DNA of 23,240 nucleotides from a virus. The notes below the pieces were generated by a model. That model was given only the letters and a program-made list of their open reading frames with translations. It was not told where the DNA came from and ran no database searches. This document shows, piece after piece, positions 10,936-22,559 of the stretch. The number at the start of each line of letters is the position of its first letter. Position 1 is the first letter of the stretch. The translations under genes were made by a program, and so were the position numbers. The stretch lies in the IMG/VR virus record IMGVR_UViG_3300029787_000347, positions 1 to 23,240 of that record; one strand, 5' to 3'.

Positions 10936-11424
10936 ATGATTACAAGACAAGATTTACTAAAAATATTTAATTGGGCAAAACAGACAGAATTTCCTTTAAA
11001 AAAAGCACCCACAGTTCAAGGGTATTCAAATAAAAGCGTTTACATATCTTGGTTGAAAGGTGCTGGCAAAAAGGTTTTTATCCGTAAAAAAATTATGAGT
11101 GATGAAGTTGCTGACATATTTTTAAAAGACGAGATTATTTTTGCTACTTTTTCTATGTTTGAGTCTGGAACTATTCTTAATCCACATCGAGACCCCGATG
11201 TTTATCCTTGCAGATATAAAAGAATACAAGTGCCACTTAAAATACCTGATAGAACCCATTGCTTTATGATATGGGATGGTAAGAAAATAACTTGGAAGGA
11301 GGGTGTACCTCAAACATATCCTGTTATGGATGTGACACACGAGGGGTATAATCTATCGACAGAATCAATGGAATTTGTTATGATAGATGTAAAACTAGAT
11401 ACTGTTATCGAAGATGAAACTTAA
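10936..11424 (+). CDS. Aspartyl/asparaginyl beta-hydroxylase-like oxygenase
   Basis: This 162-residue protein looks like the aspartyl/asparaginyl beta-hydroxylase branch of 2OG oxygenases. H84 and D86 in NPHRDPDVY form the proximal iron motif. A strand RIQVPLKIPD follows, then the W-D-G-K turn (113-116) and the distal histidine H135 in THEGYNLSTES, in the order seen in that family. The protein is about the size of the catalytic domain alone. It starts 12 bases after the previous stop with no clear Shine-Dalgarno sequence and overlaps the next gene by 11 bases. With the enzymes at 85 and 9513 it makes three dioxygenases in 11 kb. The substrate is unknown. Confidence 0.78.
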   Translation: MITRQDLLKIFNWAKQTEFPLKKAPTVQGYSNKSVYISWLKGAGKKVFIRKKIMSDEVADIFLKDEIIFATFSMFESGTILNPHRDPDVYPCRYKRIQVPLKIPDRTHCFMIWDGKKITWKEGVPQTYPVMDVTHEGYNLSTESMEFVMIDVKLDTVIEDET

Positions 11425-11596
11425 TCGCAATGAGGTTATGTTATTGAGAGGTATTTTGCACACAAAGAAAATGTATAAGGGTATGAAGCACATACCACAT
11501 GGTGCTGTCATCTGGGAGGATTGGATGGAAGATAGTTTTCATAAAGTAAATAATTATATTAAGGAGCATTATCCTGATATACCTGATTGGAAATAA
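11414..11596 (+). CDS. Small unknown protein, end of fibre operon
   Basis: This 60-residue protein overlaps the preceding oxygenase gene by 11 bases and is the last gene before a terminator. It is rich in charged and aromatic residues (HIPHGAVIWEDWMEDSFHKV) and has no membrane segment or known motif. The overlap and the in-order position support it as a real gene; nothing in the sequence indicates a role. Confidence 0.6.
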   Translation: MKLNRNEVMLLRGILHTKKMYKGMKHIPHGAVIWEDWMEDSFHKVNNYIKEHYPDIPDWK

Positions 11597-11691
11597 TATA
11601 GATCAAATTCAATAAATTTATACATACCTTTGTATGGTTTGTTCGGAAGACTCTATAAATTTTTAGAAGGGATCAGTTGGGAAACTGTCAC

Positions 11692-11716
11692 AACCCTCTA
11701 CACAGAGGGTTTTTTT
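11692..11716 (+). terminator. Rho-independent terminator of the fibre block
   Basis: AACCCTCT (11692-11699) and AGAGGGTT (11704-11711) form a perfect 8-bp stem with a 4-base ACAC loop, followed by a run of seven T (11710-11716). This is the cleanest intrinsic terminator in the window and separates the late fibre block from the helicase gene. Confidence 0.85.
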
Positions 11717-11717
11717 G

Positions 11718-11726
11718 TGCTATGAT
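11718..11726 (+). promoter_or_regulatory. Extended -10 promoter for helicase gene
   Basis: TGC followed by TATGAT gives the TGn extended -10 arrangement with a hexamer one base from TATAAT. It lies directly after the terminator T run and 29 bases before the ATG at 11750. No good -35 is visible, which is usual for extended -10 promoters. Confidence 0.55.
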
Positions 11727-11749
11727 ATGTACATATCAATGAGTTTCCC

Positions 11750-12925
11750 ATGCAACTAAGACCCCACCAAGAGCAAGCAGTTAAAGCAATGCTTCGCAAT
11801 GACAAAGGACAAGTGATTGTTCCTACAGGTGGTGGTAAAACAATGTGTATGATTGATGATGCTATGAATGAATTTAGCAGATCATACATGGGTCAGACCA
11901 TTGTAGTTGTTGCACCTCGCATTTTACTTGCCAACCAATTATCATCAGAGTTTCTTGAGTTCATTGATAATGCAGAAGTATTACACGTTCATAGTGGAGA
12001 GACACATCATTATTCAACTACAAAGGCAAGCAGAATATCTGTATGGTCAACAAAAAATGCTGTAAGTAATCAGATAATCTTTACCACATATCATTCACTT
12101 CATAGAGTGCAAGAGAGTGGTATTCATGTAGATACAATATACTTTGATGAAGCACATAATTCAGTACAGAAAAACTTTATTCAATCTGTAGAGTATTTCT
12201 CAATGTATGCTGATCGTTCATACTTCTTTACTGCTACACCAAAGCACAGTCTAACACCACTCAAAGCGGGTATGAATGATAGTGATATATTTGGTAATGT
12301 GATATGTAATGTACCCGCACCACAACTTGTCAATCAAGGTTACATACTACCACCAAAGGTAGAAGTCTATCGGACAAGAATTTTGGAGAAAGATGAGTTA
12401 GTTGCTGACAGGGATTGTGAGCAAATGATTGATGCAATGGACAATCTCAAGAAGAGCAAGGTTCTTATATGTGCCAAATCTACAAAACAAATTGTCAACT
12501 TAATCTCTCATACAAAGTTTGTAAATGAGTTAGCATGGAGAGGTTATTCATACATGTTGATTACTTCAAAGACAGGTGCTATAATTGATGGAGAAAAAGT
12601 TAACAGAGAAGAGTTTTTCAATGTACTCAACGCATGGGGTCAAGACCCAGACAAAAGATTTGTTGTACTACACCACAGTATTCTATCTGAAGGTATCAAC
12701 GTAAAAGGTCTTGAAGCGGTCTTGTTTATGAGATCTATGGATTACGTTGGAATCTCACAAACCATTGGTAGAGTCATCCGTAAAGGTGCAGAGGACAAAG
12801 TATTTGGTCTTGTATGTATTCCAGTTTACTCTAAAGTTGGTATCTCAACCGCCAGAAAGGTCGAGGCAGTTGTTGATACTATATTCAACAAAGGCGAAGC
12901 AGCAACTTCAGTTATCACAAAATGA
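11750..12925 (+). CDS. SF2 DEAH-box helicase (UvsW-like)
   Basis: This 391-residue protein carries the ordered motifs of a superfamily 2 helicase: LRPHQEQAV (3-11), Walker A PTGGGKT (25-31), DEAH (133-136), TAT of motif III (161-163), motif V around SEGINVKG (313-320) and motif VI QTIGRVIRKG (337-346). It is shorter than T4 UvsW (about 500 residues) and lacks obvious accessory domains. T4 UvsW remodels replication and recombination intermediates; an equivalent role in phage DNA branch migration is likely, though it could be a separate helicase of the same family. No strong Shine-Dalgarno sequence precedes the ATG. It has its own promoter at 11718-11726 and its stop overlaps the next micro-ORF by 4 bases. 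Confidence 0.88.
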   Translation: MQLRPHQEQAVKAMLRNDKGQVIVPTGGGKTMCMIDDAMNEFSRSYMGQTIVVVAPRILLANQLSSEFLEFIDNAEVLHVHSGETHHYSTTKASRISVWSTKNAVSNQIIFTTYHSLHRVQESGIHVDTIYFDEAHNSVQKNFIQSVEYFSMYADRSYFFTATPKHSLTPLKAGMNDSDIFGNVICNVPAPQLVNQGYILPPKVEVYRTRILEKDELVADRDCEQMIDAMDNLKKSKVLICAKSTKQIVNLISHTKFVNELAWRGYSYMLITSKTGAIIDGEKVNREEFFNVLNAWGQDPDKRFVVLHHSILSEGINVKGLEAVLFMRSMDYVGISQTIGRVIRKGAEDKVFGLVCIPVYSKVGISTARKVEAVVDTIFNKGEAATSVITK

Positions 12926-13026
12926 AATCAGAAACACTATTAAGAATCCTTAAGGTGGTTAGGATAAAACCTACACCCAAGTATAAACCAGTTCGTAAAC
13001 ACTATAACATTCACACATACGGATGA
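12922..13026 (+). CDS. 34-residue basic micro-protein
   Basis: This short frame is joined to its neighbours by ATGA overlaps at both ends, with the helicase stop at 12923-12925 and the methyltransferase start at 13023. It exactly fills the gap between them. The peptide is strongly basic, with nine K/R and one E, and contains KPTPKYKPVRKH. A nucleic-acid-binding or partner-binding peptide is possible, but no family is recognised. The double overlap is the main evidence that it is translated. Confidence 0.6.
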   Translation: MKSETLLRILKVVRIKPTPKYKPVRKHYNIHTYG

Positions 13027-13988
13027 AAGATTTAATTTTATTTGGAGATTGTAAGAAAACTCTATCGGCATTTCTACCAAAGAGTGCGAGGATGTGTGTT
13101 ACATCCCCACCTTACTATGGATTGAGAGATTATGGTGGGGAAGATGAACAAATAGGTCAGGAGAATACACCAGAAGATTTTATTAATAATCTTGTAGATG
13201 TATTTAAAGAAGTTAGAAATGTACTAACTGATGATGGAACTCTATGGGTTAATCTTGGGGATAGTTATTATAACTATAGACCTGGTAAAGGTCAATCATA
13301 TCCTAAACAATCAGTATCTAAAACTAAACAAGATCTACCAGATAAATGTAATAAAAGAGGTAACAAATTAGAGGGATTAAAAGAGAAAGATTTAATTGGA
13401 ATCCCTTGGATGTTTGCATTTGCAATGAGAGCAGACGGATGGTATCTACGACAAGATATAATATGGCATAAACCAAATCCGATGCCAGAGAGTGTGAAGG
13501 ATAGGTGTACGAAGTCACACGAATATATATTTTTGTTTAGTAAAAATAAAAAATACTACTACGACAATGAAGCAATCAAAGAACCCGCAAAAGATTGGGG
13601 AACAAGAGACAGAACCAAAGGAAAATACCACAACGAAGGAACAGGACTCCAACCGCATAGTGGACTTACAAAATCATATCCAACAAAAAATAAACGATCT
13701 GTCTGGTCAGTAACAAACAAACCATATAAGGAAGCACATTTTGCCACATATCCACCAGACTTAATTGAACCTTGCATCAAAGCAGGGAGTCAGGAAGGAG
13801 ATATAATTCTTGATCCATTTATGGGATCAGGAACTACAGCAGCAGTAGCAAAGTCACTAGGTAGATATTATATTGGGTGTGAACTACATGAAGACTATGG
13901 TAACTTAATTCAAGAAAGAGTCAAGAGTTATCATCCAGTTCAAGAAGTGTCACAAGAACCCACCATAAACATCCTAGACATTATATAA
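13023..13988 (+). CDS. Beta-class DNA methyltransferase, probably N4-cytosine type
   Basis: This 321-residue SAM-dependent DNA methyltransferase has catalytic motif IV TSPPYYGLRDYG (27-38) near the N-terminus and the SAM-binding motif I DPFMGSGTT (264-272) near the C-terminus. That order defines the beta class. The SPPY form of motif IV is most often seen in N4-cytosine enzymes, although N6-adenine activity cannot be excluded. A target-recognition segment lies between them. No nuclease gene is adjacent, so it is probably an orphan that protects phage DNA or marks it for regulation. The C-terminal tail (PVQEVSQE) resembles that of the second methyltransferase at 16624. It overlaps the 34-residue ORF upstream. 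Confidence 0.9.
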   Translation: MKDLILFGDCKKTLSAFLPKSARMCVTSPPYYGLRDYGGEDEQIGQENTPEDFINNLVDVFKEVRNVLTDDGTLWVNLGDSYYNYRPGKGQSYPKQSVSKTKQDLPDKCNKRGNKLEGLKEKDLIGIPWMFAFAMRADGWYLRQDIIWHKPNPMPESVKDRCTKSHEYIFLFSKNKKYYYDNEAIKEPAKDWGTRDRTKGKYHNEGTGLQPHSGLTKSYPTKNKRSVWSVTNKPYKEAHFATYPPDLIEPCIKAGSQEGDIILDPFMGSGTTAAVAKSLGRYYIGCELHEDYGNLIQERVKSYHPVQEVSQEPTINILDII

Positions 13989-14010
13989 TAAAGATAGTTA
14001 AGGTATTACT

Positions 14011-14151
14011 ATGAAATGCGAAGTCCAGTTGTATGTTGCAGGTAAATTGTTTACCGAGCAAGTGTATGCTGTAGATTATGAGGAAGCAAGAAGAGTTGCT
14101 CTTGCTAGAAATCCTAATGCGAGAATCGTAAGTGTAAATGCGAAATTCTAA
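14011..14151 (+). CDS. Conserved 46-residue unknown protein
   Basis: This short gene encodes a protein with two beta-strand-like stretches, CEVQLYVAGKLF and ARIVSVNAKF, around a helix AVDYEEARRVALARN. I recognise the pattern as one that recurs as a small hypothetical protein in T4-like cyanophages, but no function is known to me. An AAGG precedes the ATG by about nine bases, and the gene overlaps the next by 14 bases. The pattern of strand, helix, strand suggests a small folded domain. Confidence 0.72.
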   Translation: MKCEVQLYVAGKLFTEQVYAVDYEEARRVALARNPNARIVSVNAKF

Positions 14152-14398
14152 TTATCAGACATTTTATCCTACTACGTTTCCCACATTACTAGACCCAAAA
14201 CCAGATCAACCAACTGGTTATGTAACAAAAGATGGTATGTGGGCAGCAGTTCCGTCTGATGGTCGTAAGTTTGCCATCGTACATAATGGTATCATTGAAC
14301 ACTTCTCAAAAAATTTTGAATGTGCTATGATATACATACAAAAAGGAATTAAAAAGGAGAAGAAGGATGCACGATCAAAACTCAATCGGAAAAAATGA
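14138..14398 (+). CDS. Unknown 86-residue protein
   Basis: This protein begins with a proline- and aromatic-rich segment (FYPTTFPTLLDPKPDQP) and ends in a strongly basic tail in which K and R make up most of the last 18 residues. The middle (KFAIVHNGIIEHFSKNFE) could form a small alpha/beta unit. No family is recognised. It overlaps both neighbours, by 14 bases upstream and 32 bases downstream, which suits the tight packing here. The large downstream overlap might mean that the basic tail is dispensable or that the two genes are translationally coupled. Confidence 0.62.
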   Translation: MRNSNYQTFYPTTFPTLLDPKPDQPTGYVTKDGMWAAVPSDGRKFAIVHNGIIEHFSKNFECAMIYIQKGIKKEKKDARSKLNRKK

Positions 14399-14669
14399 AA
14401 CACCCTCTGAAAGATACCAACGAGCGTTAGATCTTTTTACCGAGTCAGTAATGAAACCTGACCCTGATTTGCGTGGTTGTGCATATAATCAAGATTGCTT
14501 CAATGAGTTGATGGAGATACGAGAACACGTTTTAGAATATCTTAAAACTCTAAAGGAAGTTACCCATCATGCTTATGCAGACGAGAGTGACGAATTAGAG
14601 ACAGCAAAATTAATTGCAGTAAAAGATAAGATTGCTGTTGAGTCAAAACCATATACCAAATGGCGGTAG
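14367..14669 (+). CDS. Unknown 100-residue helical protein
   Basis: A strong Shine-Dalgarno region (AAAAGGAGAAGAAGG) sits directly before the ATG, which favours this start despite the 32-base overlap with the previous gene. The protein is mostly helical by composition, with SERYQRALDLFTESVM and FNELMEIREHVLEYLKTL as amphipathic segments and two cysteines near residues 38 and 44. No catalytic motif or membrane segment is seen. It is followed by about 65 bases without a gene, in which I see no clear signal. Confidence 0.68.
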   Translation: MHDQNSIGKNETPSERYQRALDLFTESVMKPDPDLRGCAYNQDCFNELMEIREHVLEYLKTLKEVTHHAYADESDELETAKLIAVKDKIAVESKPYTKWR

Positions 14670-14735
14670 GTATAAACTCGTAGGCATTTCTTTTTGTTAA
14701 ATTATTAGGAAATCAAGACATAATTCATCTAAATA

Positions 14736-14819
14736 ATGATAGAATTGAACGGAGAACAAGATGCACTAAAACTTATTTGTTATTTGTTTCTTATTGTAGT
14801 TTTATGGAGAAAAAATTAA
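14736..14819 (+). CDS. 27-residue single-pass membrane micro-protein
   Basis: The frame encodes a short polar start (MIELNGEQDAL), a hydrophobic helix of about 14 residues ending LFLIVVLW, and a basic RKN end, which suggests a positive-inside C-terminus. The stop overlaps the next ATG at 14819 in a TAATG junction. There is no clear Shine-Dalgarno sequence, so this call rests on the junction and the membrane segment. Phages often use such peptides at the membrane, but no role can be assigned. Confidence 0.48.
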   Translation: MIELNGEQDALKLICYLFLIVVLWRKN

Positions 14820-14968
14820 TGCACAACCTAATTTCTTTTAATCAATTATCGGGATCATATTCTGATCCACACGATGAATTAATCGCAGAGTACTACGAGT
14901 GTTTAATAGAGTGTGATGAAGATCAACATACATGTAAAAGAATATGTAAGGAGGTTCTAATAAGTTAG
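14819..14968 (+). CDS. 49-residue protein with twin CX3C motif
   Basis: The start at 14819 is chosen over upstream TTG and ATG codons because it has TGGAG eight to ten bases before it and a TAATG junction with the preceding micro-ORF. The protein has cysteines at 28, 32, 39 and 43, giving C-x3-C, six residues, C-x3-C on a helical background (EYYECLIECDEDQHTCKR). That layout could form a disulfide-linked or metal-bound helical hairpin, as in twin-CX3C proteins of other organisms. I believe related small proteins occur in other cyanophages, but the function is unknown. Confidence 0.65.
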   Translation: MHNLISFNQLSGSYSDPHDELIAEYYECLIECDEDQHTCKRICKEVLIS

Positions 14969-14989
14969 TCATAAAGTAAATTGTATAAA

Positions 14990-14997
14990 GATAAATA
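14990..14997 (+). promoter_or_regulatory. Late promoter (GATAAATA)
   Basis: GATAAATA fits the NATAAATA late motif. A start about six bases downstream (near 15003) would fall inside the loop of the hairpin at 14993-15019, so the late transcript would not contain the left arm. It would drive the 15022 gene and the small genes after it. Confidence 0.55.
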
Positions 14998-15019
14998 CCC
15001 TTGTCTTACAGGGGTATTT
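14993..15019 (+). promoter_or_regulatory. Hairpin masking the ribosome site of the 15022 gene
   Basis: AAATACCC (14993-15000) pairs perfectly with GGGTATTT (15012-15019). The right arm contains most of the AGGGG that serves as Shine-Dalgarno for the ATG at 15022. The stem followed by T could also act as a weak terminator. Confidence 0.6.
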
Positions 15020-15021
15020 TT

Positions 15022-15186
15022 ATGCAAATTCATGCAGGAGATCGAGTGGTATATAAAGGTGGTAATGATAAGTATATGTTGATTGTAGGTAAATTTTATG
15101 TTGTAGATCATATTAGAAGTGGGCAAAAGATTAAATTGTGTGGTATAATGAATTGGATGGACAGTAACTATTTCAGAGTAGCATAA
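15022..15186 (+). CDS. Unknown 54-residue protein, likely beta-barrel
   Basis: I start this gene at the ATG with AGGGG about eight bases upstream; a TTG 21 bases earlier lies inside the hairpin and is unlikely. The protein (MQIHAGDRVVYKGG, then MLIVGKFYVVDHI) has the alternating pattern of a small SH3-like or KOW-like barrel, a common RNA- or protein-binding shape, but no family is certain. Its stop overlaps the next ATG (TAATG). Translation from early read-through RNA is probably blocked by the hairpin over its ribosome site, with late expression from 14990-14997. Confidence 0.65.
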   Translation: MQIHAGDRVVYKGGNDKYMLIVGKFYVVDHIRSGQKIKLCGIMNWMDSNYFRVA

Positions 15187-15341
15187 TGGATTCTCTCAAA
15201 ATTAATCAAAACAAAGATGGAACTTATACAGTTGAGTGGGATAAGAAAGACCCAAATTGGAAATGGATGAACTCATTGACTTCAAAGGAGGTTCAAGGTA
15301 TAATAGAAAAAGCAATGAATTTTGAAAATGACAGACGATAG
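15186..15341 (+). CDS. Unknown 51-residue protein
   Basis: The ATG overlaps the stop of the previous gene (TAATG), and the frame runs 51 codons before overlapping the next gene by 14 bases. The protein has a beta-hairpin-like GTYTVEWDKKDP stretch, a tryptophan-rich NWKWMN and a helix SKEVQGIIEKAM. I recall similar proteins as conserved small hypotheticals in T4-like cyanophages, with no known role. The strand-then-helix layout suggests a compact folded domain. Confidence 0.65.
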   Translation: MDSLKINQNKDGTYTVEWDKKDPNWKWMNSLTSKEVQGIIEKAMNFENDRR

Positions 15342-15531
15342 ATCATTAAAAATTTTAAAGGAGTGGGTACAAGAGTGTCTTAATTCTGATTGCCGACCTT
15401 TAGAAATATACACCACAGTTATAGATGCTGTCAAGGAGAATACAAAATACCACGAGTTATGTGCAGCAGAGGGTAGAACTTTAGTGACTATGTTGACTAA
15501 TAATTTTAGTGAAGTTGAGAGTACAGAATAA
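15328..15531 (+). CDS. Unknown 67-residue helical protein
   Basis: The ATG at 15328 is preferred to a TTG six bases earlier. The protein is mainly helical and contains three cysteines (at ECLNSDCRP and HELCAAEG). The pattern of amphipathic helices (LKILKEWVQECL, then IDAVKENTKYHEL) suggests a small helical bundle. No enzyme motif or membrane segment is seen. It overlaps the upstream gene by 14 bases and the downstream gene by 1 base (TAATG). Confidence 0.65.
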   Translation: MTDDRSLKILKEWVQECLNSDCRPLEIYTTVIDAVKENTKYHELCAAEGRTLVTMLTNNFSEVESTE

Positions 15532-15707
15532 TGAAATACCATTTATATGATGAAAATTATAATCACAAAGGAGATTTCCAGACACTAGATGAAATGAGAA
15601 ATTTTTTATGTGAGAGAAAGTATGACAATGATGATAGGTCATATATGCACGATACATTTGATTATATCAAGTCTATTAGATGGCATTGGGATTTAACTGA
15701 ACATTAA
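15531..15707 (+). CDS. Unknown 58-residue protein
   Basis: This frame starts in a TAATG junction and ends 48 bases before cp12. The protein is aromatic-rich and charged (MKYHLYDENYNHKG, IRWHWDLTEH). It has no membrane segment and no motif I recognise. It is last in the small-gene group that begins at 15022, so it is probably co-transcribed with it. The gap that follows holds the late-type promoter at 15722-15729. Confidence 0.6.
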   Translation: MKYHLYDENYNHKGDFQTLDEMRNFLCERKYDNDDRSYMHDTFDYIKSIRWHWDLTEH

Positions 15708-15721
15708 ATCATCATTAAAAA

Positions 15722-15729
15722 CATAAATA
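15722..15729 (+). promoter_or_regulatory. Late-type promoter upstream of cp12 (CATAAATA)
   Basis: CATAAATA is identical to the box before the giant structural gene (696-703). It lies 34 bases before the cp12 ATG, nearly the same as the 39 bases at 696 to 735. A transcript would start near 15735 and leave a leader of about 20 bases. Confidence 0.6.
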
Positions 15730-15755
15730 GTATTAACACAAACAAAAAACACATT

Positions 15756-15983
15756 ATGAAATCAATAGAAGACCATATCGAGTTTGATAAAAAGAAACTA
15801 GAAGACCCAACAACTTCCCCCGCAGCGAAAAGACATCTTAAAGATGAACTTCAAGAACTACAGGAATATGTTGGACATCATGAAGAAGAGATTAAAGCGG
15901 GAGATCATCACGACCCCACCGCTCTAGAAGTATTTTGTGATTTGCACCCAGACGAACCAGAATGTCTAGTGTATGACGATTAA
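15756..15983 (+). CDS. cp12: CP12-like Calvin-cycle inhibitor
   Basis: CP12 is a small redox-controlled protein that, in cyanobacteria, links phosphoribulokinase and glyceraldehyde-3-phosphate dehydrogenase into an inactive complex. Cyanophages carry it to shut down carbon fixation and steer carbon toward the pentose phosphate pathway and nucleotide supply. This 75-residue protein has the C-terminal CP12 signature: DPTALEVFCDLHPDEPEC, with C61 and C70 spaced as CX8C, then LVYDD. The N-terminal cysteine pair of many cellular CP12 proteins is absent. The central AWD-VEEL motif is reduced to a degenerate ELQELQEYV. A late-type box stands 34 bases upstream. The restriction-modification genes follow after 68 bases with their own promoter. 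Confidence 0.88.
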   Translation: MKSIEDHIEFDKKKLEDPTTSPAAKRHLKDELQELQEYVGHHEEEIKAGDHHDPTALEVFCDLHPDEPECLVYDD

Positions 15984-16020
15984 ATAACTGACACATTCCT
16001 CTTGCATCTTTCATATAGAT

Positions 16021-16041
16021 TGATTATACTAGGTATAATCA
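16021..16041 (+). promoter_or_regulatory. Perfect palindrome containing the -10 of the nuclease-methyltransferase operon
   Basis: TGATTATAC, TAG, GTATAATCA is a perfect 9-3-9 inverted repeat. Its right arm contains TATAAT (16034-16039), 18 bases before the ATG at 16052. No -35 is convincing. The symmetry over the -10 is what an operator for a dimeric regulator looks like. A short AT-rich RNA hairpin is the alternative reading. Confidence 0.6.
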
Positions 16042-16051
16042 CAGTATTTTA

Positions 16052-16627
16052 ATGGATTTAACACCTATCATCGAGTTATATGATAAGGAACTTGATGCAC
16101 TTCCAAACATACACCAAAATGGTGGTGGTGGGGATGCAAGAAACGCATCAGGATTATTATATGAGAATTTAATCAAGAGAACTTGTGACATATTAGGATT
16201 TGATGCAAAGAAGAATGATTATGTAAAAACAGAGGAAGTAAATGGATATTGTTTAGAGAATTTACAAGTTGATTGGCACGTTTATAAAGACAATAGAATG
16301 ACAAAGTTGATAGAATCAAAAACATATTTGGATGCTTGTTATCTAAAACGTGCAATACTTGATTTTATTGAACTAGAACAATCCCCAGACGTACCTGATG
16401 ATGCAGAGTACGCAATTTTTGCGGGTCAAAATGCTTGTGGGGATGCAGCATTTCAATATTATCAACATTATTTCGAGAAGTTTACAGGAAAGAAAGTTAA
16501 TATATTCTTTGTAAATCCAACTTGTAAGAGATCATCATCAAAACCAATATACAAAGAAGAGTTTAGAGGACTTTTCAATCTTGATAATATGGTGTATAAT
16601 GAGTTTATACAATGGTTAATTAAATGA
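16052..16627 (+). CDS. PD-(D/E)XK endonuclease, probable type II restriction enzyme
   Basis: This 191-residue protein shows the layout of a PD-(D/E)XK nuclease. There is an N-terminal helix with E38 (GLLYENLIKR), an acidic residue D74 in LQVDWHVY and the E88-S-K90 pair in LIESKTYLD, followed by a helix ACYLKRAILDFIEL. The spacing from D74 to E88 is normal for the fold. Size and gene order fit an orthodox type II restriction endonuclease: it overlaps by 4 bases a methyltransferase gene that would protect its sites. The recognition sequence cannot be read from the protein. An alternative is a phage nuclease for host-DNA breakdown, but the linked methyltransferase favours restriction-modification. 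Confidence 0.72.
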   Translation: MDLTPIIELYDKELDALPNIHQNGGGGDARNASGLLYENLIKRTCDILGFDAKKNDYVKTEEVNGYCLENLQVDWHVYKDNRMTKLIESKTYLDACYLKRAILDFIELEQSPDVPDDAEYAIFAGQNACGDAAFQYYQHYFEKFTGKKVNIFFVNPTCKRSSSKPIYKEEFRGLFNLDNMVYNEFIQWLIK

Positions 16628-17403
16628 ATCTGTATCATAATGATATGTTTGATGTATTTCCAAACATTGAACCACAGAGCATAGATTTGCTACTGACAGA
16701 TTTTCCGTATGGAACATTAAATAAAAGACGTAATGAGTGGGATAAGATCATTGATTATGATAAATTTTGGTATTATGTGGACATAATATGTAAACCTAAT
16801 TGTGCGATTGTAAGTACAGCAGCACAACCTTTTACATCCGTACTCATATCAACTAACTATACTAATTTTAAGTATTGTTTAGTGTGGGAGAAATCAAAGT
16901 CAACTGGTTATCTCAATGCAAAGAAACAACCTATGAGATCTCATGAGGATATAGTTGTATTCTATAAGAAACAACCAACATACAATCCACAAATGACAGT
17001 AGGCAAACCATACGATAAAGGTAAAGCAGTTAGGGATGCAGTTCAGTATGGTAAGCAGACTAAAGCAGTTCATGTTAAGAATACTGAAGGAACAAGATAC
17101 CCACGAAGTGTACTATATTTTAAAACAGCAGAGGATGAGGGTAAACTACATCCAACACAAAAACCAATAGCATTATATGAGTATTTGGTAAGGACATATT
17201 CAAATGAAGGAGATACAATTCTTGATCCTTGCATGGGATCAGGAACTACTGGTATCGCTTGCCTTAATACCAACAGAGAATTTATTGGTATTGAAAGGGA
17301 TGAGAATTACTATACCATAGCAGAAGAAAGATTAAATAGTAGTGTGACAGTTCAAGAAGTTGCACAAGATGACTTGAATCCTCTTGTCAATGTGTTATAT
17401 TAA
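16624..17403 (+). CDS. Beta-class DNA methyltransferase, probable partner of the nuclease
   Basis: This 259-residue enzyme has motif IV TDFPYGT (25-31) near the N-terminus and SAM motif I DPCMGSGTTG (201-210) near the C-terminus, the beta-class order. The methylated base is most likely N6-adenine by family resemblance. Motif IV is DFPY, where DPPY is the usual form; the aspartate and tyrosine that matter most are kept. HPTQKP (about 177-182) is the conserved segment preceding motif I in this family. The start overlaps the nuclease stop by 4 bases, so the pair is translationally coupled. The C-terminal tail (TVQEVAQDD) resembles that of the methyltransferase at 13023. The most likely job is to protect phage DNA from the adjacent nuclease. 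Confidence 0.88.
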   Translation: MNLYHNDMFDVFPNIEPQSIDLLLTDFPYGTLNKRRNEWDKIIDYDKFWYYVDIICKPNCAIVSTAAQPFTSVLISTNYTNFKYCLVWEKSKSTGYLNAKKQPMRSHEDIVVFYKKQPTYNPQMTVGKPYDKGKAVRDAVQYGKQTKAVHVKNTEGTRYPRSVLYFKTAEDEGKLHPTQKPIALYEYLVRTYSNEGDTILDPCMGSGTTGIACLNTNREFIGIERDENYYTIAEERLNSSVTVQEVAQDDLNPLVNVLY

Positions 17404-17518
17404 TAATAGGGAAACAAAACAGGCAAGGATCTATGGTTGTCTTTGTTCAGCAGAGAAATTACGTCCTGTAAGTCCGAGTTTTTGTTTCTCGCACCCAATT
17501 TTAACCCCCTTATTGTAA
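17404..17518 (+). other. Non-coding stretch with possible RNA structure
   Basis: These 115 bases hold no convincing gene. GAAACAAAA (about 17411-17419) can pair with TTTTGTTTC (about 17481-17489). Inside, ACAGG (17419-17423) can pair with CCTGT (17465-17469). An alternative GAGAAA (17453-17458) with TTTCTC would compete for the same right arm. There is no poly-T run after it. It could be a leader element for the 17519 gene; no known RNA family is assigned. Confidence 0.4.
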
Positions 17519-17953
17519 ATGTCAACAAACGCAAGAATCGGACTAAAACTTGAAGATGGTTCAATACTTTCAGCATATCATCATTGGGATGGATACCCAG
17601 AGTGGTTAGGTGTAACTCTTAAGGAGCAGTATAATACAAAAGAGAAAATTGCTGAACTTATAGATGGTGGCAATATGTCATCTTGCTATTCTGATAGTGA
17701 GTATGATTATGAAAAGCAAGAGTTTGTAAAGACAGAACCAAAACCAAACTACTATGGTGGGAATGATGAAGCACCTCGCCTTGATGTAAACTTTGATGAG
17801 TTCGCAAAAAATTCAAACTCATGTGAAGAATTTTTGTATATCTACAATGGAGAGTGGGAAGCATTTGCGATTGACCAAAAGTATGATGAGAATTATAAGA
17901 TAGTTGATACTAACATCATTCCAGTAAAAATACCAGTAGCAGAGACAGTTTAA
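17519..17953 (+). CDS. Conserved phage protein with HHWDGYPEWLG motif
   Basis: This 144-residue protein opens with MSTNARIGLKLEDGS and the HHWDGYPEWLG motif (21-31). I recognise this combination from small phage proteins of unknown role found widely in T4-like and other phages. The fold appears beta-rich at the start with a helix KEKIAELIDGG, and the remainder is acidic. No Shine-Dalgarno sequence precedes the ATG, which is preceded by a CCCCC-containing leader. It is separated from the methyltransferase by the structured 115-base gap, which may control it. The function is unknown. Confidence 0.75.
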   Translation: MSTNARIGLKLEDGSILSAYHHWDGYPEWLGVTLKEQYNTKEKIAELIDGGNMSSCYSDSEYDYEKQEFVKTEPKPNYYGGNDEAPRLDVNFDEFAKNSNSCEEFLYIYNGEWEAFAIDQKYDENYKIVDTNIIPVKIPVAETV

Positions 17954-17967
17954 TTACTGTCACAACA

Positions 17968-17990
17968 CCCCTTACATTTTGTGTGAGGGG
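17968..17990 (+). terminator. Stem-loop between 17953 and the next promoter
   Basis: CCCCTTACA (17968-17976) pairs with TGTGAGGGG (17982-17990) as a 9-bp stem with one G-T wobble and a 5-base loop. It lacks a T run, so termination may be weak. It occupies the same place as the terminator before the helicase gene: both follow an ACTGTCACAAC box. Confidence 0.55.
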
Positions 17991-17999
17991 TACTATAAT
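17971..17999 (+). promoter_or_regulatory. Early-type promoter for the 18022 gene
   Basis: TATAAT (17994-17999) has CTTACA (17971-17976, four of six bases matching TTGACA) exactly 17 bases upstream. The -35 lies within the stem-loop. The -10 is 28 bases before the ATG at 18022, close to the helicase promoter (29). Confidence 0.6.
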
Positions 18000-18021
18000 A
18001 TAAACATACACCACAAACACT

Positions 18022-18486
18022 ATGGAAAAAGTAATCGGAGAATCAGTCAACAAAACAAATCAAGTATTTCTAGAGAGTTATGTTAATGACTATTGCAAGG
18101 CACTTGATGAGAATTACAAGATGGACACAATTAGAAGTTTAGAGCATAATCTAAAACGTGACCCAGAGTGTGCTTATTCAGCAAACAAACTTATGCAAAT
18201 TTATCAAGGTAAAGCAAACCTAGACAGATTTAGATATAGTGAAGGTAAGAAGTATTATAAAGTAACCAGAGAAGAGTATGATGAAAAAACTGGTTACTGG
18301 AGAGATACTACAGTTCACGCATTTGTAGGATTGACTAAAGAAAATCTTGGGGATGTATTTAAACCTGCATCTTGGAAAGCACCCGCAAAACACGTTAGAT
18401 TTAGTTTTTGCAACAAAAAAGATATGTTGTTCCTAACTGACCCTAGATGTGTAGGATGGGCGGGTGGATACTTATACTTGAGGTAA
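18022..18486 (+). CDS. Unknown phage protein with ASWKAPAKH motif
   Basis: This 154-residue protein has a helical first half and a beta-rich second half. The latter holds KKYYKVTREEYD and GDVFKPASWKAPAKHVRF (110-127). I associate the GDxxKxASWKAPAKHxR pattern with small phage proteins of unknown function. The end (DPRCVGWAGGYLYLR) is aromatic and glycine-rich. It has its own promoter within a stem-loop cassette like that of the helicase gene, so early expression is likely. No catalytic residues can be named. Confidence 0.68.
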   Translation: MEKVIGESVNKTNQVFLESYVNDYCKALDENYKMDTIRSLEHNLKRDPECAYSANKLMQIYQGKANLDRFRYSEGKKYYKVTREEYDEKTGYWRDTTVHAFVGLTKENLGDVFKPASWKAPAKHVRFSFCNKKDMLFLTDPRCVGWAGGYLYLR

Positions 18487-18488
18487 TT

Positions 18489-18572
18489 ATGATTGCATTT
18501 TTTAGTTTAGTTGTTATTGTTCTCATCGTGGTGGGTATAGTTTATATAAAGATATATAATCCACATGATTAA
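18489..18572 (+). CDS. 27-residue membrane micro-protein
   Basis: GAGG five bases before the ATG is a good ribosome site. The peptide is almost wholly a membrane helix (FFSLVVIVLIVVGIVYI) with a short polar IYNPHD end. The stop is followed immediately by the next possible start. No role can be assigned, though single-helix peptides of this size are common phage membrane factors. Confidence 0.58.
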   Translation: MIAFFSLVVIVLIVVGIVYIKIYNPHD

Positions 18573-18675
18573 AATGACAGTTCGTGAAAAGTTTATTTTC
18601 ATCCTATCTTTCGTTTACTTTCTACATTGGGGAGTAAACTTGTTTGATTTTCTTTTATTCAAATATGCACTATGA
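18565..18675 (+). CDS. 36-residue membrane-associated micro-protein
   Basis: Two starts are possible: 18565, or 18574 just after the upstream stop, which would give 33 residues. The peptide begins KMTVREKF and continues as two short hydrophobic stretches, IFILSFVYFLHWGVNL and FDFLLFKYAL. The TGA overlaps the next ATG in an ATGA junction, which supports translation. It follows another membrane peptide, so the two may work together; the function is unknown. Confidence 0.52.
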   Translation: MIKMTVREKFIFILSFVYFLHWGVNLFDFLLFKYAL

Positions 18676-19049
18676 CACTATACACATCAGGAGATTGGAA
18701 AGTTGACCCTAATAAGGACATAACATTTCCATTAGTAGATTGGATACTCAAACTATTTCCAGTATTAAAAAATAAAGAGATAGAAATTAATCAGGTCGAT
18801 CTTGATGGGGAGTTTGCAAGTGGATTCTGTCAGGACAATGACGGAGAATTTTTGATTCATGTTCATAATAGACTTGATTTGAGAGAGTATGTAAAGACAT
18901 TAATACATGAATTTACACACGTTAGACAGACAGTTGATGGCATTACAGACTCAAATGCCAGAGAAGATGAAGCATACCACTTGGAAGAGACATTAAGCAA
19001 GGCATTTTGGGACAATAATATTAGTGGCACACATGATGTAGAATCGTGA
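18672..19049 (+). CDS. HExxH metalloprotease-like protein
   Basis: This 125-residue protein carries a zincin motif HEFTH (79-83), where H79 and H83 would bind zinc and E80 would be the catalytic base. EDEAYHLE (98-105) seventeen or more residues later supplies E100 as a likely third ligand. The helix before the motif (LREYVKTLI) is typical of such enzymes. The protein is about the size of a minimal SprT-like or ImmA-like domain, but the exact family is not certain. A substrate cannot be named; candidate roles are processing of host or phage proteins early in infection. Its start overlaps the upstream membrane peptide by 4 bases. Confidence 0.75.
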   Translation: MTLYTSGDWKVDPNKDITFPLVDWILKLFPVLKNKEIEINQVDLDGEFASGFCQDNDGEFLIHVHNRLDLREYVKTLIHEFTHVRQTVDGITDSNAREDEAYHLEETLSKAFWDNNISGTHDVES

Positions 19050-19060
19050 CCAATATCCAT

Positions 19061-19066
19061 TATAAT
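19061..19066 (+). promoter_or_regulatory. -10 element for the 19090 gene
   Basis: TATAAT stands 29 bases before the ATG at 19090, the same spacing as the helicase promoter. There is no clear -35. AGAGG precedes the start codon by five bases. Confidence 0.5.
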
Positions 19067-19089
19067 AGTAATATACACAAAGAGGTACT

Positions 19090-19317
19090 ATGAACGAAAT
19101 CTTTGAAGACCTACAATTTTTGATCGAAGGTCTTGGTCTAAATGATGAACAAATTGAAGAAACTTTTGACATCACAAGAGGATTAGGTGTTAGACCAGAG
19201 TATTTTTCAGATGAGTTTATCTTTCGTACAGACAGAACATTTGAAGAGGATACTCAATTACATGACCCAGAGTATCTAAACATTGCTTTGTTCAATGCTA
19301 TGTACTGGGAGCAGTAG
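19090..19317 (+). CDS. Unknown acidic 75-residue protein
   Basis: This is an acidic, helix-rich protein (MNEIFEDLQFLIEGLGLND, then FEEDTQLHDPEYLNIALFN). No family is recognised. An AGAGG sequence lies close before the ATG, and a TATAAT at 19061 provides a likely early promoter. It is the first gene of a cluster of acidic small proteins. The next gene starts at 19319, immediately after its stop. Confidence 0.68.
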   Translation: MNEIFEDLQFLIEGLGLNDEQIEETFDITRGLGVRPEYFSDEFIFRTDRTFEEDTQLHDPEYLNIALFNAMYWEQ

Positions 19318-19318
19318 T

Positions 19319-19504
19319 ATGTCAAAAGAAATGTTATTCTTATGTGATGTTCTTACAGATTGGTGTAAGAAAAATAAGTTACCACATAGATGTGCGAGTG
19401 ATCTACTCTATAGTGAGGACACTAAAGGCAGACTTACAGGTAATCAAGTTTACTGGTTAGAAAACTTTATCTCTACATGGGATATTATCAATCAAACTAC
19501 TTAA
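19319..19504 (+). CDS. Unknown 61-residue protein
   Basis: I start at the ATG one base after the upstream stop; an earlier in-frame start at 19283 would lie inside the preceding gene and gives a cysteine-rich stretch unlike the rest. The protein includes VLTDWCKKNKLPHRCASDLLY and a tryptophan-containing helix. It resembles a small helical domain without a recognised function. It is followed by two related acidic genes. Confidence 0.65.
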   Translation: MSKEMLFLCDVLTDWCKKNKLPHRCASDLLYSEDTKGRLTGNQVYWLENFISTWDIINQTT

Positions 19505-19506
19505 TC

Positions 19507-19782
19507 ATGTTAAAATCATTATTTACAGCAGAGCAAATTCAAGACTTGAGAGAAGAGTTCGTTGAATTTTATATCAACGATATGACCACCGAACAAATGG
19601 CAGATTGGATTCGTACAACTTATCTTGGCGAATTGAACAAATGCACAGAGGATGAAATCAGGGATGAGATTGATGACTATGATGAAAACTTGTATGAAGT
19701 GCTTGCACCTATGGTATTAGATCAAGAGGGTGCATATGAAGAATTGCAAGAGTTCATACATGACAGGAGGGAGCAATTCTAA
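19507..19782 (+). CDS. Acidic 91-residue protein, tandem paralogue 1
   Basis: The ATG at 19507 follows the previous stop by two bases; an in-frame start 30 bases earlier lies within the upstream gene. The protein is strongly acidic, about 26 D/E against 7 K/R. It aligns with the next protein over FTAEQIQDLREEFVEFYINDM and beyond. The helical, acidic surface might mimic DNA, but that is inference. Its stop overlaps the next ATG (TAATG). Confidence 0.7.
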   Translation: MLKSLFTAEQIQDLREEFVEFYINDMTTEQMADWIRTTYLGELNKCTEDEIRDEIDDYDENLYEVLAPMVLDQEGAYEELQEFIHDRREQF

Positions 19783-20081
19783 TGACACAATTTGAATATT
19801 ACTCTCATAATAAAATGAGTGAAGTAAAAAAAGATTTTACACCCGCACTAATTAACGAACTCAAATCATTTTTGGTTGAGAGAGTGGTTGATAATATGTC
19901 AACCAAAGACTTGGTACAGTATGTCACAGATGACCTTGATGACCTATACAAAAATATGCCAGAAGCAGAATTTCTTGATGAAGCACAAAACTATTGGGAA
20001 GATAGTTTTGATGAGGTAGTAGAGGAAGTAGAAGAGTATGCTGATTGTGATTTTAAAAAAGACAGGAGGTTAGACTCATGA
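19782..20081 (+). CDS. Acidic 99-residue protein, tandem paralogue 2
   Basis: This gene begins in a TAATG junction; an alternative in-frame ATG at 19815 is less likely. The segment FTPALINELKSFLVERVVDNM matches the start of the upstream paralogue, and the similarity continues through the helix with DMS/TT-K/E-Q-L/M and a later DE-rich stretch. It has about 27 D/E against 11 K/R. The function is unknown. AGGAGGT within its 3' end serves as the ribosome site for the next gene, with which it overlaps by 4 bases. Confidence 0.7.
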   Translation: MTQFEYYSHNKMSEVKKDFTPALINELKSFLVERVVDNMSTKDLVQYVTDDLDDLYKNMPEAEFLDEAQNYWEDSFDEVVEEVEEYADCDFKKDRRLDS

Positions 20082-20245
20082 ACCAGTTTTCACAAATCTA
20101 CTATCCAAATCTTGACCCATATGAACAGCAGTATAATGACATTTGGTTTATGCGAATGTTATCAATGTTAAAAGATGATGGTATATTGTTCATACCTGAC
20201 CTTAACAAATCATTTAACAAATTGGGTCAAGAGGTGTGCCAATAA
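20078..20245 (+). CDS. Unknown 55-residue protein
   Basis: A strong AGGAGGT lies about nine bases before the ATG, and the start overlaps the upstream TGA (ATGA). The protein has an aromatic N-terminus (FSQIYYPNLDPYEQQYND) and a helix FMRMLSMLKDDG. No motif is recognised. It was too short to be obvious but the ribosome site and overlap support it. A promoter region for the next operon follows. Confidence 0.62.
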   Translation: MNQFSQIYYPNLDPYEQQYNDIWFMRMLSMLKDDGILFIPDLNKSFNKLGQEVCQ

Positions 20246-20253
20246 TATTTCCG

Positions 20254-20293
20254 CACACTAACTGTACAATTTTCACACTATTCAGACTATAAT
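20254..20293 (+). promoter_or_regulatory. Promoter with paired CACACTA boxes
   Basis: TATAAT (20288-20293) is 30 bases before the ATG at 20318. Two identical CACACTA boxes at 20254-20260 and 20274-20280 are spaced 20 bases apart, about two helical turns. No good -35 is present, so an activator could bind the boxes. Confidence 0.5.
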
Positions 20294-20317
20294 TAGTATA
20301 TAACGAACAGAGGTCTT

Positions 20318-20545
20318 ATGATTTTTCAAAACACATGGCAAGATGAGATCGTACTTCACGAAGCATTTATTGAAAATGGCGAAGTTTCAATCAGAGAGGT
20401 TACTCTCGGTGGAGATCCAGTAGAGGACTTTGTTGACTATCATCCAAGTATCGGTGCAAGTGATGATGAACTCACAAAGATATGTGATGACATCTATCAG
20501 ACACTTATGGGTGCATATGTAGCACAAATGATGGAGATAGCATAA
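20318..20545 (+). CDS. Unknown acidic 75-residue protein
   Basis: AGAGG precedes the ATG by a few bases. The protein starts with a beta-rich half (IVLHEAFIENGEVSIREVTL) and ends with a helical half (DELTKICDDIYQTLMGAYVA). It is acidic, and I see no known motif. It overlaps the next gene by one base (TAATG) and is probably the first gene of an operon driven from 20288-20293. Confidence 0.7.
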   Translation: MIFQNTWQDEIVLHEAFIENGEVSIREVTLGGDPVEDFVDYHPSIGASDDELTKICDDIYQTLMGAYVAQMMEIA

Positions 20546-20880
20546 TGAGAACATATATTTTCAAAGACTACCTAGAGGATAAGCATGGTAAGTTTTTACC
20601 TATGCAGACTATTGAATCAGAGGAGTTCGGTAGGCACTTCTTTATTGATATAGGATTCAATTTCATATCAGCACCAAGTTTTGAAGATGGTGGTTATGAT
20701 GAGTCACAGTTGGATTATGTGAGTAACTGGACAGATTTAGAGGGAGTTGACCTAAACAAATTATTTGACATCAATCGTCAATTAACTTGGAATCAATGGC
20801 AAGAGGACAAAGACAAAGCACATTCTGATATGTGTGAGTACATGGAAGCAGTAGAAACTGGGGAGATTCAATTCTTATGA
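20545..20880 (+). CDS. Unknown 111-residue protein
   Basis: This protein begins MRTYIFKDYLEDKHG and has several aromatic, acidic segments (FGRHFFIDIGFNF, then ESQLDYVSNWTDLEG). The end is a helix with DKAHSDMCEYMEAVETGE. No recognised family or membrane segment. It is linked to its neighbours by TAATG at the start and ATGA at the end, so it belongs in the same operon. The function is unknown. Confidence 0.7.
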   Translation: MRTYIFKDYLEDKHGKFLPMQTIESEEFGRHFFIDIGFNFISAPSFEDGGYDESQLDYVSNWTDLEGVDLNKLFDINRQLTWNQWQEDKDKAHSDMCEYMEAVETGEIQFL

Positions 20881-21194
20881 CCTACGACACAGAACACTAC
20901 TATGCACTTCAAACTTTCCTTGAAGATGATGAACTTCATGAAATTTGGAACATTGTGGAAAAAGCAATGAACAGAGAAGGTTTTGATGTATCAAATTCAG
21001 AACTTTCAATGAGACTATATGATAGTGAATTGGAAGAGAACATTGAGCATGACATGGAGAACTTGTTAGATAGTTTATCAGAGGGTAAAGACTTTGACTA
21101 TGGTAGCAAAGTTGATGCACTTGTGGATAGTATGAGTGTGACAGAAAAAGAGGTGTCCACTTCATACACACGCAAGGATATGGACTTGCTATAA
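20877..21194 (+). CDS. Unknown acidic helical 105-residue protein
   Basis: The frame starts in an ATGA junction. The protein is predominantly helical and acidic (YALQTFLEDDELHEIWNIVE, then EENIEHDMENLLDSL). No catalytic motif. Its last codons overlap the extended -10 promoter at 21187-21195, so the 3' end also serves as a promoter for the next gene. A role cannot be given. Confidence 0.7.
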   Translation: MTYDTEHYYALQTFLEDDELHEIWNIVEKAMNREGFDVSNSELSMRLYDSELEENIEHDMENLLDSLSEGKDFDYGSKVDALVDSMSVTEKEVSTSYTRKDMDLL

Positions 21195-21195
21195 T
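21187..21195 (+). promoter_or_regulatory. Extended -10 promoter inside gene end
   Basis: TGC followed by TATAAT is a perfect extended -10. Counting seven bases from the last T gives a start near 21202, which is the first ATG of the next frame. That would make the longer form leaderless and supports translation from 21250 instead. Confidence 0.55.
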
Positions 21196-21201
21196 AATAG
21201 T

Positions 21202-21537
21202 ATGAAAACAACAACTATCACAACAGATCAATTTATTCAAGGTAACTACATGAACTCTGGAACATCAAGCACAGAACTTAACGATTCTCTCACAGATTTT
21301 GTGAAGTATGTTGATTCATTCTATGGTGTTAATGACCCACTCTATCCTATGATGAGTAAAGAGACAGGTCAACCATTAAACACAGTTGACATCTATCGTG
21401 CAACAGAAAACTACCTACACAAGTGTAGTGACAAAAATGAAGAGTTATGCACATGGGGAGACGGAGATTCTCTTGATCGTGAGAGAGTCAGAGACATTCT
21501 ACTTGATGAGTACAATTACAAATTTGTAGGAGAGTAG
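21202..21537 (+). CDS. Unknown 111-residue protein, start uncertain
   Basis: The longest frame begins at 21202, but an ATG at 21250 has AAGG seven bases upstream and would give 95 residues. If the promoter at 21187-21195 is used, only the later start has a leader. The protein contains FVKYVDSFYGVNDPLYPMMS and a polar C-terminus with DRERVRDILLDEYNY, which looks like a small alpha/beta domain. No family is recognised. The next gene begins two bases after its stop. Confidence 0.65.
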   Translation: MKTTTITTDQFIQGNYMNSGTSSTELNDSLTDFVKYVDSFYGVNDPLYPMMSKETGQPLNTVDIYRATENYLHKCSDKNEELCTWGDGDSLDRERVRDILLDEYNYKFVGE

Positions 21538-21538
21538 A

Positions 21539-21745
21539 ATGAAATTCAATGTAACAGAAGTTGAGTTTGATTTTGATGACGATTATGCCAACGGATTCAA
21601 ACTCACATTTGAAGAAGAAATTACACTTCGTGACCTAGCACTTGGTGTATGGGAAGCAGACAATGAAGATGACCTAATTGAAGAGGTCACAGCAGCATCA
21701 GGTTGGTGCATTAAAAAAATTGATTATGAGGTTCAATTAAAATGA
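21539..21745 (+). CDS. Unknown acidic 68-residue protein
   Basis: The protein begins with a beta strand KFNVTEVEFDF and an acidic DDDYANG turn, then a strand GFKLTFEEE and a helix LRDLALGVWEADNEDD. It ends GWCIKKIDYEVQL. This shape of small protein is one I associate with T4-like cyanophages, without a known role. It ends in an ATGA overlap with the next gene. Confidence 0.7.
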   Translation: MKFNVTEVEFDFDDDYANGFKLTFEEEITLRDLALGVWEADNEDDLIEEVTAASGWCIKKIDYEVQLK

Positions 21746-21963
21746 GTTTAAGAATACCACACAGAGTGACTCTAACCGAAGCACAGATTTCAACAGTTCT
21801 CTTTTGTATGGAAGGTTATGTTCAAGAACATCCTGACAAAATGAACAATCCAGAGTTTGAAGAGGATGTTGAAAGTATATTTGAGGAATTAGAGGGAACA
21901 ATCGACAAATACTATGATAAAATTGATAAAGCACAGGAAAATCAACCAAAACATGAGTGGTAG
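21742..21963 (+). CDS. Unknown 73-residue helical protein
   Basis: The start overlaps the upstream TGA. The protein has a short basic start (MSLRIPHRVTLTEAQ), a helix with ISTVLFCMEGYVQEH, and a long acidic helix EDVESIFEELEGTIDKYYDK that may form a coiled coil. No enzyme motif is seen. It is followed by about 96 bases without a gene that hold a palindrome, a hairpin and a possible -10. Confidence 0.68.
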   Translation: MSLRIPHRVTLTEAQISTVLFCMEGYVQEHPDKMNNPEFEEDVESIFEELEGTIDKYYDKIDKAQENQPKHEW

Positions 21964-21971
21964 GCAGTTAT

Positions 21972-21985
21972 GTATCATATGATAC
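21972..21985. repeat. 14-bp perfect palindrome
   Basis: GTATCATATGATAC reads the same on both strands. It is in the gene-free gap, about 50 bases upstream of a possible -10 (22037-22042). A dimeric protein site is a reasonable guess. Confidence 0.45.
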
Positions 21986-22003
21986 CGAACTACTAGCGTC
22001 AGA

Positions 22004-22021
22004 ATCGCCTGTAAGGGCGAT
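22004..22021 (+). terminator. Possible stem-loop before the 22060 gene
   Basis: ATCGCC (22004-22009) pairs with GGCGAT (22016-22021) around a 6-base TGTAAG loop. It is more GC-rich than the surroundings but has no T run. It precedes a TACAAT hexamer at 22037-22042, so it may be a third stem-loop plus promoter arrangement. Confidence 0.4.
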
Positions 22022-22036
22022 GAAATTTACTTTAGG

Positions 22037-22042
22037 TACAAT
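22037..22042 (+). promoter_or_regulatory. Possible -10 (TACAAT) for the 22060 gene
   Basis: TACAAT differs from TATAAT by one base and stands 23 bases before the ATG. There is no clear -35. A CCCCC run between it and the ATG resembles the leader of the 17519 gene, which has the same feature. Confidence 0.35.
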
Positions 22043-22059
22043 AGTAACCCCCAAAAAAC

Positions 22060-22269
22060 ATGAAATTAGTACACAACACAAAAACCAGTTTAGGAGAACA
22101 GGCAAAAGAGTATTATCCACAAGTTAAGGAATTATATCCTTATTTGGATGAAATGCTATTGAATCGCATTTCCAAATATTGTGTGGTATATCTGGAGGAT
22201 AAAGAAGACGCAACCATACAGGATGCAATCTTAAAATTTGAACAAACGTTTTTAGAGGAGTTGACATAA
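22060..22269 (+). CDS. Unknown 69-residue protein
   Basis: The protein is helical with a tyrosine-rich middle (AKEYYPQVKELYPYLDEML) and an acidic end (ILKFEQTFLEELT). No Shine-Dalgarno sequence is visible, as with the 17519 gene, whose leader also carries a CCCCC run. Its last bases form the -35 of a perfect early promoter. No function can be given. Confidence 0.65.
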   Translation: MKLVHNTKTSLGEQAKEYYPQVKELYPYLDEMLLNRISKYCVVYLEDKEDATIQDAILKFEQTFLEELT

Positions 22270-22289
22270 TCGCACAGATTTATTATAAT
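22261..22289 (+). promoter_or_regulatory. Consensus sigma-70 promoter
   Basis: TTGACA (22261-22266) and TATAAT (22284-22289) are both exact with a 17-base spacer, the ideal sigma-70 arrangement. It overlaps the end of the 22060 gene and lies 33 bases before the ATG at 22317. It is the best host-type promoter in the window, which points to early expression by the host polymerase. Confidence 0.82.
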
Positions 22290-22316
22290 ATATGGTATAG
22301 AATAAACATCGAATAG

Positions 22317-22559
22317 ATGAAAAATCTTTACATAGTTGATTATTGGGTTCCGTTTCCTACAAGTGAATATGGAGGAATGGTGACTCTCATTGCTTCAAAT
22401 GACAGCGAAGCGTTCGAGTTGCTTGCCGAGCAGAGCGAGGTGAGCGGAGATTTTGAGAACAAATATATAAGTCGTATCATGCCGAATGTCGTAAAGGCAC
22501 AGAAGTTTCCACTTGTCGGGGAACATCAGTCAACAATTATTGAATCATTTACAACTTAA
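22317..22559 (+). CDS. Conserved small protein of unknown function, 80 residues
   Basis: This protein begins MKNLYIVDYWVPFPTSEYGG, a start I recognise from small hypothetical proteins in T4-like cyanophages. The core looks like a beta-alpha-beta unit (VTLIASNDSEAFELLAE) and ends IIESFTT. Bases about 22404-22450 are richer in G and C than the flanks and use codons such as GCG and GAG more. It follows the perfect sigma-70 promoter and overlaps the next gene by one base. Confidence 0.72.
   Translation: MKNLYIVDYWVPFPTSEYGGMVTLIASNDSEAFELLAEQSEVSGDFENKYISRIMPNVVKAQKFPLVGEHQSTIIESFTT

Follow-up and report, generated by a model that had tools for sequence, protein, structure and literature searches.

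The 23,240-nt stretch of viral DNA analysed here (the window) carries a putative nuclease gene that runs directly into a methyltransferase gene. The locus raises the question of whether these two genes form a complete type II restriction-modification cassette and, if so, which sequence it recognises and whose DNA it attacks. Bacteriophages are described as seldom carrying enzymes of this type (PMC4081073). We consider it quite probable that the window derives from a T4-like phage, probably of cyanobacteria, with a type II cassette that comprises a CTNAG-cutting nuclease and a CTNAG-shielding methyltransferase.

Layout and recurrence of the gene pair

The coding part of the cassette begins at 16052. 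The ORF at 16052-16627 (+) would encode a PD-(D/E)XK endonuclease of 191 aa with predicted specificity CTNAG, and that at 16624-17403 (+) a beta-class DNA methyltransferase of 259 aa predicted to protect the same sequence. The preliminary description had claimed an overlap of four bases, and the two ORFs indeed share ATGA at 16624-16627 (+); a 4-nt overlap is also found in many related loci and suggests that translation of the two genes may be coupled.

The claim that the pair has its own promoter is less secure. Coordinate 16021, where the preliminary description placed the start of the cassette, lies inside a candidate promoter region (TTGCAT-17-TATACT, 16002-16030, +; weak against background), and diverged loci also have a TATACT or TATAAT box, 20-23 nt ahead of the start codon; however, promoter-like matches are common in AT-rich DNA such as that of the window (16 found versus 10 +/- 2.9 expected), and a dedicated promoter is best regarded as plausible. 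The candidate -10 box is overlapped by a perfect dyad, GATTATAC-TAG-GTATAATC (16022-16040), which is present in near relatives and largely retained in locus L012 with both arms changed, and which is possibly an operator.

Outside the pair, a ResIII-type helicase gene at 11750-12925, also found near MT1 in related loci, presumably encodes a T4 UvsW-like phage helicase. A second N6_N4 methyltransferase gene (13023-13988, +; 321 aa; PF01555, E = 4.9e-60; PADLOC MTase_II PDLC03387, E = 5.7e-108) resembles cyanophage genes annotated as dam or cytosine methyltransferases. The photosystem gene psbA is absent from the 23-kb window. It is present in the relatives G005 and G006, which have the pair, and in G008, which has only the methyltransferase, and this points to cyanobacterial hosts.

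The association of the two genes, proposed earlier for this locus, recurs with short overlaps in related viruses. Among 131 nuclease ORFs in the fetched viral loci, some of them from overlapping loci of one contig, 118 have a homologous methyltransferase within 150 nt, and the 13 unpaired ORFs include loci that end at the nuclease. Paired ORFs mostly overlap by 1, 4 or 16 nt, the exact overlap shifting with alternative longer start codons. At two methyltransferase loci (L037:3436-4017 and L043:3451-4020) a much diverged ORF, with about 20% identity and the motif ECKDYF, occupies the place of the nuclease, perhaps through replacement of that half of the pair.

The nuclease also occurs alone. 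The Synechococcus phages S-CAM1 and S-CAM3 and the marine virus AG-345-P14 encode nucleases 31-35% identical to that of the window, with the same catalytic residues, and no relative of the partner methyltransferase lies beside them. The complete S-CAM1 genome lacks any such relative; it encodes a PF02086 enzyme but none of PF01555 or PF00145. A single different PF01555 enzyme is encoded elsewhere in S-CAM3, and likewise in AG-345-P14.

Properties of the nuclease and the methyltransferase

The residues that had been read as a catalytic motif (E38, D74 and E88-x-K90) do occupy those positions in the 191-aa protein. An alignment of 46 nuclease homologues shows no variation at D74, E88 or K90 and at least 90% conservation of E38; all four are invariant in the 41 closer homologues. 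The gene has a dN/dS of 0.08-0.21, which corresponds to purifying selection. The protein belongs to phrog_10849 (E = 2.9e-19), a family whose function is not known, and searches of Pfam and NCBIfam returned no significant family. The match of the window nuclease to the PADLOC model for type II restriction enzymes is weak (E = 2.5e-5), and this REase_II model matches 37 of the 46 homologues with a best E of 1.4e-12.

An AlphaFold2 model of the nuclease (mean pLDDT 96.2) adopts a PD-(D/E)XK fold which, together with the conserved catalytic residues, bears out the nuclease call at the level of prediction. The preliminary description had suggested structure modelling as a check, and type II restriction enzymes match the model best: the nearest solved structure is BbvCI (Foldseek E = 1.7e-4; VIA Z = 13.6, rmsd 3.1 over 172 residues), with 13% identity in the structural alignment, followed by NucC (Z = 10.7), PspGI (10.3) and Bse634I (9.7). 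A phmmer search of the PDB with the nuclease gave two matches only, both with E = 1.5, and the A1 nuclease profile found no sequence match there at E up to 10; thus, the likeness to BbvCI is a resemblance of fold and not family membership. Two contig scans with short peptide patterns, which distant relatives could escape, found no bacterial relatives of the nuclease. The second-best viral fold match is a protein of Aureococcus anophagefferens virus, A0A076FM80; this virus also has a beta-class methyltransferase, AaV_128. Methylation at CTNAG is reported for an algal giant virus with a similar-fold protein (PMC12700378); this link to the cassette is suggestive only. The 191-aa nuclease probably works as a homodimer.

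The 259-aa protein is an N6_N4 methyltransferase (PF01555, E = 5.8e-33; PADLOC MTase_II) in which motif IV (DFPYG) precedes motif I (DPCMGSGTT). This is the beta order, and with the PF01555 match it upholds the earlier assignment to the beta class. Its site specificity was unreadable from solved relatives, the nearest of which include DpnA-annotated enzymes, CcrM and MboIIA.

Several of these features are those of a type II system. The methyltransferase is a separate protein that is genetically linked to the nuclease, both in the window and in the paired loci, and the predicted model of the nuclease combines a restriction-enzyme fold with a complete catalytic site. Unlike in types I and III, the nuclease is a single domain with neither an ATP-dependent motor nor a specificity subunit, and family searches found no helicase or specificity domain in it. 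The linked nuclease also sets this methyltransferase apart from orphan phage methyltransferases, which have no linked endonuclease. Of the two outcomes that the preliminary description would have counted against the pair, a structure or profile match to something other than a nuclease and a lack of pairing in relatives, neither appeared.

CTNAG content of carrier and control genomes

The palindrome scan took in half-sites 2 or 3 bases long, separated by 0-6 bases, in 20 genomes or genome parts; 505 patterns had enough expected counts under a second-order Markov expectation. We found that CTNAG is the outstanding loss, with 3 sites observed for 742 expected in S-CAM1, 3 for 722 in S-CAM3 and 1 for 215 in AG-345-P14, that is, 7 seen against about 1,680 expected in the three nuclease-only cyanophage genomes together. 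When long ORFs were compared with synonymous-codon shuffles, in which the encoded proteins stay unchanged, the corresponding values were 1/546, 1/538 and 0/103, and those for five controls were 0.89-1.12. Eleven further nuclease-only loci from IMG/VR have 3 sites for 424 expected. Among 18 control cyanophages CTNAG stands at 0.65-1.07 of expectation (the 12 of the initial scan span the same range). These controls include five phages that are related in sequence to S-CAM1 and S-CAM3 and in which tblastn found no nuclease; their values are 0.70-0.94. These results need to be read with the ancestry of the carriers in mind: S-CAM1, S-CAM3 and AG-345-P14 are mutually related in structural genes, and their losses are therefore not three fully independent events.

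Three of the seven surviving sites lie within tRNA genes and two at matching positions in one protein gene, which from the S-CAM1 sequence we take to encode 6-phosphogluconate dehydrogenase. Six of the seven are embedded in GCTNAGC, a context that may be constrained or may be a poor substrate for cutting. Surviving CTNAG at conserved positions outside ARAGORN tRNA genes was seen at about 61369 of S-CAM3 (L163:1369) and at L297:1277, and also, just downstream of the nuclease gene, at about 41279 of AG-345-P14 and at L303:10678.

The controls are also depleted in CCGG, AGCT, TGCA and further palindromes, which for this reason were dropped as candidate targets. CCGG has 0 or 1 sites for 34-158 expected in many cyanomyoviruses (S-CAM1, S-CAM3 and most of the 12 controls) and is normal in G005, G006 and S-CAM4. 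Among 444 overlapping 10-kb segments of the 12 controls, only one has CTNAG below 0.1 of expectation; this segment of S-PM2 (AJ630128, about 5001-15000; 3 seen versus 30.6 expected) was possibly acquired from a nuclease-bearing phage.

A strict rule that nuclease without methyltransferase means no CTNAG is broken by L095, L096 and L097, in which the nuclease is about 70% identical to that of the window and CTNAG is only mildly depleted (0.51-0.68); no partner methyltransferase was found in these records of 6 to 12 kb. A 193-aa ORF that weakly matches MvaI/BcnI restriction enzymes occurs in two copies (L097:4197-4778 and 7589-8170; record G002, L284), with E values of 1.8e-4 and 7.8e-5 that fall short of the Pfam cut-off. 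GATC in the same 12-kb record as the ORF pair is seen 2 times for 42 expected, and is perhaps another self-purged site.

Genomes or pools that bear the methyltransferase have CTNAG at 0.16-0.28 of expectation, and CTNAG with its extensions TCTNAGA and ACTNAGT are the sole patterns among 472 for which all methyltransferase sets fall below all 18 controls. In five sets, one of them methyltransferase-only, depletion was strongest near the cassette: 6 sites for 135 expected (0.045) within 5 kb, 0.19 of expectation at 5-12 kb and 0.23-0.30 farther away. The last CTNAG of the window is at 11756, and the stretch around the cassette (11757-23240) is free of the site (0 seen, 27.7 expected). Paired genomes retain many CTNAG (143 in G006, 38 in G005), and if their nucleases share the predicted specificity, these sites would need protection from cutting. 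On the fragments G008 and G010 the methyltransferase occurs without a nuclease, yet CTNAG is at 0.24 and 0.18; in G008 it is 0/23 within 5 kb of the methyltransferase, which would fit a nuclease once present and since lost.

With the exceptions of L095, L096, L097, G008 and G010, nuclease and methyltransferase both track depletion of CTNAG, and on this indirect evidence from the genomes CTNAG is the predicted recognition site of both enzymes. The fold match to BbvCI was made without reference to the palindrome scan, and both lead to a CTNAG core, as BbvCI cuts at CC|TCAGC and the related type IIT enzyme Bpu10I at CC|TNAGC (PMC4081073).

Possible roles and comparison with known systems

In the reading that we favour, the 191-aa endonuclease would cut the palindrome CTNAG and the 259-aa enzyme would methylate one of its bases, probably adenine, so that the phage DNA is shielded. 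Unmodified host DNA would then be broken up after infection, which would serve takeover and nucleotide supply, and relatives with the nuclease alone would survive their own enzyme through the loss of almost every CTNAG. Provided that the pair is a restriction-modification cassette, the breaking of unmodified host DNA is somewhat favoured as its main purpose; the pair may in addition serve to cut the DNA of rival phages that is not modified. A broader proposal, to which we give about an even chance, is that this restriction enzyme family serves across marine phages as their own scissors for host DNA at CTNAG, with two routes to self-protection: methylation of the sites, or the purging of almost every one from a 200-kb genome, which can then do without the partner methyltransferase.

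It is rather unlikely that a genuine CTNAG cassette has the destruction of competing phage DNA (superinfection exclusion), and not of host DNA, as its main job. Most control cyanophages, with their normal CTNAG counts, would be vulnerable if unmodified, and a virus-derived restriction enzyme reported from an archaeal virus is discussed in connection with the exclusion of other viruses (PMC10101028). However, host chromatin is believed to be what the best-studied viral restriction enzymes, those of chloroviruses, break down (PMC7019647). Host DNA is also the most abundant unmodified target. The genome evidence fits both roles alike, and host DNA is only somewhat favoured as the main substrate of the cassette.

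Less probable still is the explanation that CTNAG was lost through restriction by the hosts, that the phage nuclease has a different site and that the association is a coincidence of lineage. Phages commonly lose sites restricted by their hosts, and the loss of CCGG and other palindromes in many cyanophages irrespective of the nuclease fits this explanation, as does the shared ancestry of the three nuclease-only genomes; but Synechococcus WH7803 is the recorded host of S-CAM1 (0.004), S-PM2 (0.65) and ACG-2014h (0.70) alike, and such widely different CTNAG content on the same host strain speaks against host restriction as the cause. Neither does host restriction predict that depletion should be strongest within 5 kb of the cassette, and the fold match independently indicates a site containing CTNAG.

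That a PD-(D/E)XK repair or recombination nuclease merely neighbours an orphan methyltransferase directed against host restriction is very improbable: phages carry many genes of both kinds and some loci hold just one of the two, but the pairing is tight, recurrent and overlapping, the nearest fold is that of a type II enzyme, the REase_II model matches most homologues, and both genes track depletion of one palindrome.

The nuclease family, in about a hundred viral loci, acquires a concrete predicted site, and a function is proposed for the S-CAM1 and S-CAM3 proteins, which in these cultured phages bear only the annotation "hypothetical". If true, the CTNAG cassette would make it easy to test how host DNA is attacked by cyanophages that yet avoid self-harm, and a clear case of a virus rewriting its own genome to tolerate its own enzyme. 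Type II restriction-modification cassettes are already known in kind; what would be new is their presence in tailed phages of marine origin, the specificity predicted here and the existence of relatives that keep only the nuclease and have purged the site. The open literature searched, outside which most subscription papers fall, held no report of such a cassette and nothing on cyanophages with DdeI or on S-CAM1 with restriction.

Among known enzymes, DdeI recognises C|TNAG, which equals the predicted CTNAG, and it is likened to the window nuclease by site alone. BbvCI, whose B2 dimer is the best solved fold match, and Bpu10I share the predicted fold; the profile search of the PDB showed no sequence homology with their family, and they are heterodimers with two nuclease subunits and asymmetric 7-bp sites, whereas the cassette has one nuclease gene and a palindromic predicted site of 5 bp. 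A parallel in arrangement is offered by the chlorovirus restriction-modification systems CviAI and CviAII, in which the virus encodes a site-specific nuclease and the methyltransferase belonging to it side by side (PMC7019647, PMC12700378). Chloroviruses, however, infect eukaryotic algae, whereas the carriers of the cassette are tailed phages, and some relatives of the cassette differ further in that they retain the nuclease without the partner methyltransferase and have lost the sites. The phrog_10849 proteins of S-CAM1, S-CAM3 and AG-345-P14 belong to the same family as the window nuclease, with the partner methyltransferase absent alongside and CTNAG almost absent from the genomes.
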